The notes under the pieces: generated by a model
Seen by the model: the letters and a program-made list of their open reading frames with translations, nothing else
The model's database searches: none
Told to the model about the DNA's origin: nothing
Shown here: positions 1-41,307 of the stretch, in pieces
Layout: each line of letters opens with the position of its first letter
Numbering within the stretch: the first letter of the stretch is position 1
Program-made: the position numbers and the translations under genes
Origin: Lepisosteus oculatus
Lineage: Eukaryota; Chordata; Actinopteri; Semionotiformes; Lepisosteidae
NCBI RefSeq assembly: GCF_040954835.1
Contig: NC_090712.1
Coordinates: 7,015,284-7,079,283, forward strand
Direction of reading: 5' to 3'
DNA: 64,000 bases

Positions 1-481
1 TGCTAGCTATGACACTACGTGCCAGGGACAGCAGAGACTGACTGTTGCCAAAATCAATTCTTACTCTACAGCCACACTCCTCTTGATTCAGATAGTCTTT
101 ACACAGGCATAGGAGATGCCTGTACACTTTGAGGGTAATGCCCGTTTCAATATTTAATCTTTGTGCATTTTCGATAAGGGCACAGGAGAGGATAGCTGCA
201 AACAAACCACAATCGCTAAAGCAAGAAATATGGTTCAGAACAGATGCAGTAAGTAGCTTGAGGACAGGGTGTGATGTGAAAACTCCTTTCAGAAGCACTG
301 CTGACGTAGATGTGGTCTGGACATGCCCTCCCACATTGTTATGTATTTGCTTGAGTCTGCCGGTAGGACCAAAACATGATGTGAAGATCTGCCTGAACAC
401 TGCCAGTTTCTGACACACTTTATCATCTGATAAAGGTTCAGCAGTACAGAGCGAGGTCTTTTTATTTGACAGACGAGACAT
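1..481 (-). CDS. mkks: mkks (McKusick-Kaufman/BBS6 chaperonin-like protein), N-terminal part, runs off the left edge
   Basis: MKKS/BBS6 is a group II chaperonin-like protein that, with BBS10, BBS12 and CCT, helps assemble the BBSome for ciliary trafficking. The ATG is at 481 on the minus strand and the frame stays open for 160 codons to the window edge. It starts MSRLSNKKTSLC and then shows CFGPTGRLKQIHNN, the equatorial-domain segment that in human reads CYGPSGRLKQLHN, followed by SCFSDCGLFAAIL and LIENAQRL. These match human MKKS in order and spacing, from memory of that protein. A probable splice acceptor (GATAG, exon from 493) lies 12 nt upstream of the ATG, so this is the first coding exon. 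The gene is partial: the apical domain and C-terminus lie left of the window. The leader carries two further ORFs at 700-849 and 1196-1390. Confidence 0.95.
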   Translation of the reverse strand, partial: MSRLSNKKTSLCTAEPLSDDKVCQKLAVFRQIFTSCFGPTGRLKQIHNNVGGHVQTTSTSAVLLKGVFTSHPVLKLLTASVLNHISCFSDCGLFAAILSCALIENAQRLNIETGITLKVYRHLLCLCKDYLNQEECGCRVRIDFGNSQSLLSLARSVIAS

Positions 482-541
482 CTTTGCTTTAGCCTATCAG
501 AGAAACTAAAGACTTTGAATTTCTTTTAAAGTCCAAGCCAT

Positions 542-586
542 TTTATTTCATGTGGATAATTTACAGAAAGGCCATGCAGATTTATT
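542..586 (-). terminator. two AATAAA hexamers between the mkks leader ORFs and the mkks ATG
   Basis: Read on the minus strand, AATAAA occurs at 586-581 and again at 547-542, after the leader ORF 2 stop (700) and before the mkks ATG (481). This is where premature poly(A) sites would have to lie to give short mRNAs encoding only the two microproteins, as reported for human MKKS. Two hexamers in 45 nt of AT-rich DNA could also be chance. Confidence 0.5.
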
Positions 587-699
587 TATGTCTGACCTCA
601 TTTATAGACCCATTTCAAAGTACAACCTTTTTAATTTAAACTTAAATAGCAAGGATCAGCACATAATGGTCTAGTTTGGCTCTTCCGATTGTGGCATCA

Positions 700-849
700 T
701 TACTTGACATCCTTCTGTTTCAATGCAAGATCCGAACGAGTCGAGCTTTTCACAGTCTTTTGCAATAGATATGTCCCAAGGTGAATACCAAGAAAAGAAA
801 GTCCTGCCACAAGCAGCCAGTTCTTCTGCAACCAACTTCTATTGCTCAT
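700..849 (-). CDS. mkks leader ORF 2: 49-aa single-pass microprotein, probable uMKKS2 homologue
   Basis: This ORF is in the mkks 5' leader, 218 nt upstream of the mkks ATG, and is shorter than usual gene-calling cut-offs. It starts at 849 with A at -3 (CTAACATGA) and stops TAA at 700-702. The 49-residue product begins MSNRSWLQKN and has one hydrophobic segment, WLLVAGLSFLGIHLGTYLLQ (about residues 11-30). A basic tail ending KQKDVK follows. Human MKKS mRNA is reported to carry a leader ORF of about 50 aa (uMKKS2) whose product goes to mitochondria. Position, length and topology agree here; I did not align the sequences. The exon appears to begin at 904 (acceptor TTTCAG). The basic N-terminus plus short membrane span fits a mitochondrial membrane microprotein, which is inference. 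Confidence 0.82.
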   Translation of the reverse strand: MSNRSWLQKNWLLVAGLSFLGIHLGTYLLQKTVKSSTRSDLALKQKDVK

Positions 850-1181
850 GTTAGCAGCCTTTAACGAGGGATCTTTTTGTCATTAATTGGAGATTAATTT
901 CTGCCTGAAATGAAAGGGAAAATTACACATATTGTTAGACTAAGAAATACAATAGAGAACTTCCATATTTAATAGATTTTTTTTAAAAATAGCTTCTCCA
1001 GATAGGTCATTGCCTGAGTCAAAGCAATTCTATTTTGTGCCATTACATCTTCTATAATATTCACTATGAGATTGCAGATGAACATCAATTCTATTTACCT
1101 ACAGCACGAGAAATGGCTGGCACAGGCCAAACTTTAGAATCTTCATTTGAGCCACAGAGCTAAAAAATGACAGCCCAATAC

Positions 1182-1404
1182 CTGTGATCAGTATTCTACT
1201 GCTTTCCTTTTGGGTGACTTTGCTGTTGGGAGACATAGGACACCACGCCGGGCTCTGGCATGTAACTGTCCTCCTTCTTGTGGAAGATAGGATTTGACTT
1301 GATGCTGTACCAACCCCAGTGTACCAGTCCAAGACCCGTGCCCATAACTATAAGCACTTTGTAGTTCTTCCACGCACTTCTTAGTCCCATAGTAACGCTG
1401 GAAC
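1182..1404 (-). other. mkks: mkks non-coding (leader) exon 2
   Basis: Acceptor: TTTCATTTGTAG just before 1404. Donor: CACAG|GTATTG with last exonic base 1182. The exon holds leader ORF 1 almost wall to wall. The preceding exon ends at 1738 (donor AAG|GTGAGT). The next starts at 904 (acceptor CATTTCAG) and holds leader ORF 2. Whether the 904 exon reads straight into the mkks coding exon or is spliced to the acceptor at 493 cannot be settled by eye: no strong donor is visible between 700 and 500. Confidence 0.6.
1196..1390 (-). CDS. mkks leader ORF 1: 64-aa single-pass microprotein, probable uMKKS1 homologue
   Basis: This ORF lies in the second exon of the mkks leader, here placed at 1182-1404 (acceptor TTTGTAG, donor CACAG|GTATTG). 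The ATG at 1390 has A at -3 and G at +4, a strong initiation context. Sixty-four codons follow, to TAG at 1196-1198. The product begins MGLRSAWKNYK, has a hydrophobic stretch KVLIVMGTGLGLVHWGWY (residues 11-28), then a polar tail with MPEPGVVSYV. The human leader is reported to encode uMKKS1 of about 63 aa, also mitochondrial; length, order and topology match. The ORF fills its exon with no competing frame, which argues for a real protein rather than a chance upstream ATG. An in-frame ATG at 1420 lies in the intron and is not used. Confidence 0.83.
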   Translation of the reverse strand: MGLRSAWKNYKVLIVMGTGLGLVHWGWYSIKSNPIFHKKEDSYMPEPGVVSYVSQQQSHPKGKQ

Positions 1405-1739
1405 CTACAAATGAAAACACAGTTTAAAGAAACCAAACAAAAATAAAACAAAATATAAAAAACATCTCCATGCAAATGGTGAAGTCAAACCATGACTGTT
1501 TTAAAACAAAGAACCATTTAATTTGTGACGTTAGCTTCATGACTCTTTACCCTATGATCACTTGCATAATGACTGATTTCATAGAAAGACTACAGAGTGA
1601 ACCATAGCTACGGTTGATAACTGGAAAAATCAAGACACAAAACGTCCGTAGTAAACAAGTATTATTAAACCAAAACCTAGTAAAATATTTTAAATATTCG
1701 TAAGGACTTACAAATACAAGTGACAAAAAAGACTCACCT

Positions 1740-1787
1740 TCAGCAGCTTACAGTTAGAAACACGGCGGCCATTTTGGGTCCTTTCAT
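1740..1787 (-). CDS. mkks exon-1 mini upstream ORF (15 codons)
   Basis: In the first mkks leader exon an ATG at 1787 opens a 15-codon frame (MKGPKMAAVFLTVSC) that stops 1 nt before the last two exonic bases, ahead of the donor AAG|GTGAGT (exon end 1738). A second in-frame ATG at 1772 sits in AAAATGGCCGCC, which is also a good YY1 site. If transcription starts within that motif the longer form would not be made. It may correspond to the most upstream human leader ORF (uMKKS0), but the resemblance is positional only. Confidence 0.4.
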   Translation of the reverse strand: MKGPKMAAVFLTVSC

Positions 1788-2140
1788 TTGCGAATTTCCA
1801 CATATATGCCTGTCAAATATATAAGATGTTTCAGCGCCAAGCACTGCACTATAAGAGACGGTACTATAGTGTAACGAATAATAAGATACAAACTATGAAC
1901 ATGTATTAAGTACTCATTGTTTGTCATTGAAATACACATTCAATCAAAAAACTAGTCGCATCTAATGACACTTCACACTCTGTGTAAACGTCTTTTTCTT
2001 CCATTTTTGTTCTTTTAGTTACCATAACAAGCAAACGTCTTCAAGTGTTTTCAAATTCTGCAGTTTCAGCGATCGTTTCTATGGCATCAAGGACGCCTAT
2101 GGGGGTCCTTCTGTCATCGCAACGTGACCCGTATTCAAAC
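1788..2140. promoter_or_regulatory. head-to-head mkks/slx4ip promoter region
   Basis: The first mkks exon (ending at 1738) and a likely first slx4ip exon (ending at 2183) point away from each other, leaving a shared interval of at most about 350 bp. YY1-type motifs mark both sides: AAAATGGCCGCC on the minus strand near 1766-1777, and CTGATGGCGG on the plus strand near 2140-2149. No TATA box at a convincing distance and no CpG-dense island were seen. The transcription starts are inferred. Confidence 0.5.

Positions 2141-3709: not shown

Positions 3710-41307
<37,598 letters not shown>

Follow-up and report, generated by a model that had tools for sequence, protein, structure and literature searches.

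A candidate uMKKS2 orthologue in the mkks leader of Lepisosteus oculatus: a 49-codon upstream frame with a predicted membrane segment

Human MKKS upstream frames and the gar locus

The peptides encoded upstream of human MKKS (uMKKS) were reportedly first described by Akimoto et al. in 2013. The human gene carries three upstream open reading frames (uORFs) of 43, 63, and 50 codons, with uMKKS2 being a product of 50 aa (PMC9985340), while uMKKS1 is listed in a table as covering 192 genomic nt (PMC9776223). Two MKKS peptides, one of 48 aa and one of 50 aa, are also given at positions 182_326 and 391_541, respectively, of ENST00000347364.3 (PMC5896265), coordinates from which we compute a spacing of 65 nt between the two. 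Mitochondrial membrane fractions were found to contain both uMKKS1 and uMKKS2, and one short human MKKS transcript is polyadenylated within the 5′ UTR (PMC12573267). The MKKS uORF1 and uORF2 products have furthermore served as positive controls, being mitochondrial once tagged (PMC7066179), and later work places "uMKKS" in mitochondria, with the passage cited not specifying which uORF is meant (PMC10908861). The same applies to the MKKS uORF found to repress the main ORF in reporter assays, in a manner partly dependent on its sequence (PMC7530721, section 6), as well as to the human MKKS 5′ UTR coding sequence that displays a PhyloCSF coding signature and is treated by GENCODE as a distinct protein-coding gene (PMC6886504).

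The DNA analysed here (the window, i.e., the whole stretch of 64,000 nucleotides from Lepisosteus oculatus) carries at its edge the 5′ coding sequence of mkks (2..481, minus strand), which continues past the window edge, matches Pfam Cpn60_TCP1 (E 7.8e-17), and has its ATG at 481 (-). A plus-strand frame barely passes the Pfam cut-off for UPF0492 (27.3 bits vs. 27), the family of SLX4IP. Past this frame, the minus strand encodes a Notch ligand with DSL and EGF domains (Pfam), for which the top solved-structure match is jagged-1 (E 1.1e-45). Judged from these sequences, the locus is the mkks–slx4ip–jagged-1 locus of a vertebrate, in the gene order of human chromosome 20p12, and its compactness makes a fish plausible. 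At gathering scores, Rfam yielded no matches within the window. Inspected by eye, mkks exon 1 (-) and the likely first exon of slx4ip (+, donor near 2184) stand head to head across 1738-2191, inside some 450 bases; this arrangement suggests a bidirectional promoter. The motif AAAATGGCCGCC at 1775-1764 (-) resembles a YY1 site. Elsewhere in the window, a plus-strand frame at 24772-25053 resembles, by eye, the C-terminus of a LINE protein, and was without a Pfam match up to E 0.01.

The mkks leader and its two long upstream frames

Exons of the mkks leader were read by eye from minus-strand splice signals, with sites scored using rough weights. Candidate exon 1 (1738..1803, -) extends from the first leader ATG used, at 1803, an end taken for the shuffles described below rather than a mapped transcription start, to a consensus-like donor (AAG/GTGAGT at 1738/1737) that ranks among the best 0.06% of 3484 GT sites on the minus strand. 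Candidate exon 2 (1182..1404, -) contains ORF 1 and is bounded by two weak sites: an acceptor at 1405/1404 (within the top 4.3% of 4123 AG sites, with several AG sites in 480-1860 scoring above it) and a donor at 1182/1181 (within the top 10% of the 3484 GT sites). An alternative exon 2 donor at 1099/1098 scores higher (within the top 2%) and would extend the exon. The leader part of candidate exon 3 (482..904, -) follows an acceptor at 905/904 that lies within the top 0.8% of the 4123 AG sites on the minus strand, with a slightly higher score for the AG 4 nt onward; ORF 2 is situated inside this exon, with 218 nt separating it from the mkks ATG. As ORF 1 and ORF 2 are each contained within a single exon, both are retained with either exon 2 donor, lying 72 nt apart in the main splice model or 155 nt apart with the alternative donor.

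ORF 1 (1196..1390, -; 64 codons and a TAG stop) is a candidate uMKKS1 microprotein frame. Its ATG stands in a strong context, with A at -3 and G at +4, and its product has a basic N-terminus and is predicted to have one membrane segment. The 192 genomic nt of human uMKKS1 would place that frame in a single exon, as is ORF 1. An in-frame Met16 is also present in ORF 1; should the 48-aa human peptide be uMKKS1 begun at an inner Met, that residue would likewise be Met16 (of 63). Upstream, a 29-codon ORF from 1803 corresponds in position to human uMKKS0 (43 codons).

ORF 2 (700..849, -; 49 codons and a TAA stop), the candidate uMKKS2 microprotein frame, is found in the mkks 5′ leader (its exons inferred from sequence), on the mkks strand and after the first long uORF. 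It begins with the ATG at 849-847 and closes with the TAA at 702-700, flanked on one side by the 64-codon ORF 1 (1390-1196) and on the other by the mkks start (481). A preliminary description of this DNA had announced a 49-codon frame with a hydrophobic segment between ORF 1 and mkks, and it was exact as to coordinates, with the flanking frames and the hydrophobic segment confirmed; the strand, which it did not give, can now be added as minus. The 49-aa product is MSNRSWLQKNWLLVAGLSFLGIHLGTYLLQKTVKSSTRSDLALKQKDVK, in which the best 19-residue membrane window spans residues 11-29 (octanol-scale sum -10.07, Kyte-Doolittle mean 1.67), with a net charge of +2 over residues 1-10 and +4 over residues 30-49. 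The start context is adequate, with A at -3. Frame, start context, predicted membrane segment, and gene order are all read directly from the DNA. Single-sequence AlphaFold2 modelling returned one helix for ORF 2 (residues 4-48, mean pLDDT 78.0) and a helix at residues 4-31 for ORF 1 (mean pLDDT 65.3); such models tell only "one helix" for each product, and the modelled helix of ORF 2 is no more than a hint.

Two further elements surround ORF 2. A 10-codon uORF with a weak start context (MTKRSLVKGC; 851..883, -) has a stop that ends one nucleotide ahead of the ORF 2 ATG, a juxtaposition that might permit termination-reinitiation. As candidate signals for polyadenylation between ORF 2 and mkks, a motif search located two AATAAA hexamers (542..586, -), starting at 586 and 547; at least two such hexamers occurred in 530/5000 shuffles, and the pair is thus not beyond chance.

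The leader also contains a candidate splice acceptor immediately before mkks (482..495, -), with its AG at 495-494, 12 nt ahead of the mkks ATG. By splice-site score, it falls within the top 0.8% of the 4123 minus-strand AG sites and is on par with the exon 3 acceptor. Joining exon 1 (from 1803) to this acceptor would yield a 78-nt leader from which both microprotein ORFs have been removed and in which three ATGs are left. The ATG at 1803, which has a weak context, would then be in frame with mkks and add 26 N-terminal residues, with two more short exon 1 uORFs persisting after the join. One could thereby envisage a splice switch under a single promoter, between an mRNA of exons 1-2-3 for two mitochondrial microproteins and an mkks mRNA (exon 1 joined to 495/494) with neither; if so, a single gene would yield either the chaperonin-like protein or the mitochondrial pair as alternative products. 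We consider such a switch decidedly unlikely; an acceptor of this kind can have a chance origin, and it is offered as a lead and not as a result.

Chance expectation, homology searches, and the relationship between the two frames

Given that short open frames are readily produced by chance, ORF 2 could be a meaningless open frame in the leader. Dinucleotide shuffles of the exon-3 leader contained an ORF of 49 codons or more in 659/5000 cases, in keeping with this reading, and shuffles of the inferred spliced leader contained one or more such ORFs in 1783/5000 and two or more in 252/5000. The length of ORF 2 by itself is hence unremarkable and is not evidence. Synonymous codon usage in ORF 2 is likewise not coding-like (-0.072, with 13/41 background ORFs as high). 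For ORF 1, the value was 0.085 (2/41 background ORFs as high), and for held-out mkks it was -0.079, where the background averaged -0.110 (sd 0.094); mkks also fails this test, being indistinct from background, and codon usage is therefore without power to separate coding from non-coding sequence here.

Hydrophobicity and arrangement argue against a chance frame. ORFs that reached 49 codons and had an octanol sum no higher than -10 appeared in 25/5000 shuffles of the exon-3 leader. With a membrane-like segment defined as an octanol sum of -7.5 or lower, shuffles of the inferred spliced leader gave one or more ORFs of this length with such a segment in 92/5000 cases and two that did not overlap, both with such segments, in 1/5000, fractions that flatter the case since the thresholds derive from the observed ORFs and the exon joins are inferences from sequence. 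As a second background, 41 ATG ORFs of 45-75 aa were drawn from 36 kb of the window presumed to be non-coding; hydrophobicity equalled or exceeded that of ORF 2 in 2/41 on the octanol scale and in 5/41 on the Kyte-Doolittle scale. The order of the two frames, their lengths (64/49 vs. 63/50 in human), and their spacing also resemble those of the human pair. With these points weighed together, we give very little credence to ORF 2 being a chance frame.

Database searches were next to silent on both products. Pfam holds no family above cut-off for ORF 1 or ORF 2; its sole match, to ECM10, covers 14 residues of ORF 2 at 18 bits (cut-off 23) and was set aside as sub-threshold. Against PDB sequences, no match was significant (best E 1.4 and 0.37). 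Scans of viral contigs and of genome contigs, the latter with both ORF 2 and ORF 1, gave no relative; these collections are viral and prokaryotic, and their silence is uninformative on conservation. The one hit, a match of 13 residues to a Treponema MAG contig, was dismissed as fortuitous. A human peptide of uMKKS1 has been printed (PMC8448870) and was compared with ORF 1, but its alignment score was reached by 3189/5000 peptide shuffles and 3464/5000 ORF shuffles, a comparison of 17 residues with little power; either fast change of that stretch or absent homology would explain the failed match. Among the matches listed for the open-access literature, we found no fish uMKKS peptide given by sequence, and we do not claim that none has been reported. 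The zebrafish genome has been searched for conserved uORFs, with alignments deposited in supplements (PMC7530721).

The preliminary description had gone further in proposing a joint mitochondrial role for the two products, possibly as a pair. What remains of this proposal is the adjacency of the frames. A related scenario, compatible with uMKKS2 orthology, would have ORF 1 and ORF 2 as tandem duplicates of one ancestral microprotein that are now paired. In a gapped alignment, the two products share their start, RS, KN, LG, and H-x-G-x-Y, and full shuffles reached the alignment score in 149/5000, 20/3000, and 0/3000 cases at three gap costs. When the N-terminus, membrane segment, and tail were kept apart during shuffling (segment-preserving shuffles), however, the score was reached in 790/5000, 306/3000, and 95/3000 cases at the three gap costs, indicating that much of the likeness is what any pair of small membrane proteins would show. 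The resemblance of ORF 1 to ORF 2 is thus not clearly above that of segment-preserving shuffles, and we regard tandem duplication as highly unlikely.

ORF 2 as a candidate uMKKS2 orthologue

The order, size, and topology of ORF 2, together with its spacing from ORF 1, resemble those of human uMKKS2, making orthology the best reading. By analogy with the human gene, ORF 2 is probably the uMKKS2 orthologue, encoding a single-pass mitochondrial microprotein, the translation of which would also help to repress mkks. The frame is most likely real and of a known kind; that it would be translated, that its product would be located in mitochondria, and that it would contribute to repression are inferred from the human literature. 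A match to human uMKKS2 had already been put forward in the preliminary description, and its three elements of order, size (49 vs. 50 aa), and predicted topology all stand, with similar spacing (72 vs. 65 nt) as an addition; orthology itself is retained as the best reading of these resemblances. The accompanying statement that such a frame would normally be missed is true only in part, as GENCODE has a human MKKS 5′ UTR coding sequence as a distinct protein-coding gene (PMC6886504, uORF unspecified in the passage cited).

A mechanism can be proposed in which the mkks leader mRNA effectively serves as a bicistronic transcript that encodes two single-pass microproteins. Ribosomes would initiate at ORF 1 in its strong context; those scanning past ORF 1, or resuming after it, would initiate at ORF 2, 72 nt onward in the main splice model. 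The ORF 2 product, with its short basic N-terminus, moderately hydrophobic helix, and basic C-terminal tail, would then be anchored in a mitochondrial membrane. As a general rule, anchors with basic flanks and a moderately hydrophobic helix are directed to mitochondria and not to the ER. Translation of ORF 1, ORF 2, and the trailing short ORFs would at the same time withhold ribosomes from the mkks ATG, and the leader element would thereby repress mkks.

In the main splice model, the leader from 1803 measures 712 nt and presents 18 ATGs ahead of mkks; 8 of these start at position 700 or below, from the last nucleotide of ORF 2 onward. Going by these numbers, scanning ribosomes would rarely reach mkks on an mRNA of this structure. 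The same ATGs would be repressive regardless of any peptide, and they lend themselves to a reading in which ORF 2 is translated solely as a cis-acting repressor of mkks, its peptide being functionless and degraded; the repression exerted by a human MKKS uORF in reporter assays (PMC7530721) is compatible with this. Yet the human repression is itself partly dependent on the encoded sequence (PMC7530721), both tagged human products are mitochondrial (PMC7066179), and the human 5′ UTR coding sequence bears a coding signature (PMC6886504), to which can be added that a segment as hydrophobic as that of ORF 2 was seen in only 25/5000 exon-3 leader shuffles. A purely cis-acting role is accordingly unlikely in our estimation, and a uMKKS2 orthologue that both yields a membrane microprotein and helps to repress mkks remains our preferred reading.

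If the ORF 2 frame is indeed orthologous, the two-microprotein MKKS leader would date to the common ancestor of ray-finned fish and mammals. This would favour both peptides as functional proteins over mere regulators and would make tests in zebrafish possible. Mutations or knock-outs of mkks leader exons might, by the same token, affect mitochondria besides the chaperonin-like protein.

Comparison with described systems

Outside of MKKS, the nearest parallels are the uORF microproteins of MIEF1 and SLC35A4, which are mitochondrial and are reported to influence translation of the main ORF (PMC7530721, PMC10908861). These belong to other genes and are of 70 and 96 aa, respectively (PMC7066179), and we claim no sequence relationship between them and ORF 2. 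Closer is human uMKKS1 (63 aa; PMC8448870, PMC9776223), the neighbour of uMKKS2, which shares with ORF 1 (64 aa) its place in the leader, a single exon, a strong start, a basic N-terminus, and a single membrane segment by prediction, even as the alignment of its printed peptide with ORF 1 does not exceed chance. The closest described system is human uMKKS2. Though from different species, it and ORF 2 are alike in position, length, spacing, and predicted topology: each is the second of two long uORFs in an mkks leader, the human product being one residue longer, and each follows the first ORF at a similar gap (65 nt in human vs. 72 nt here). For the human product, direction to a membrane has been reported, and the ORF 2 product is correspondingly predicted to contain a single membrane segment.
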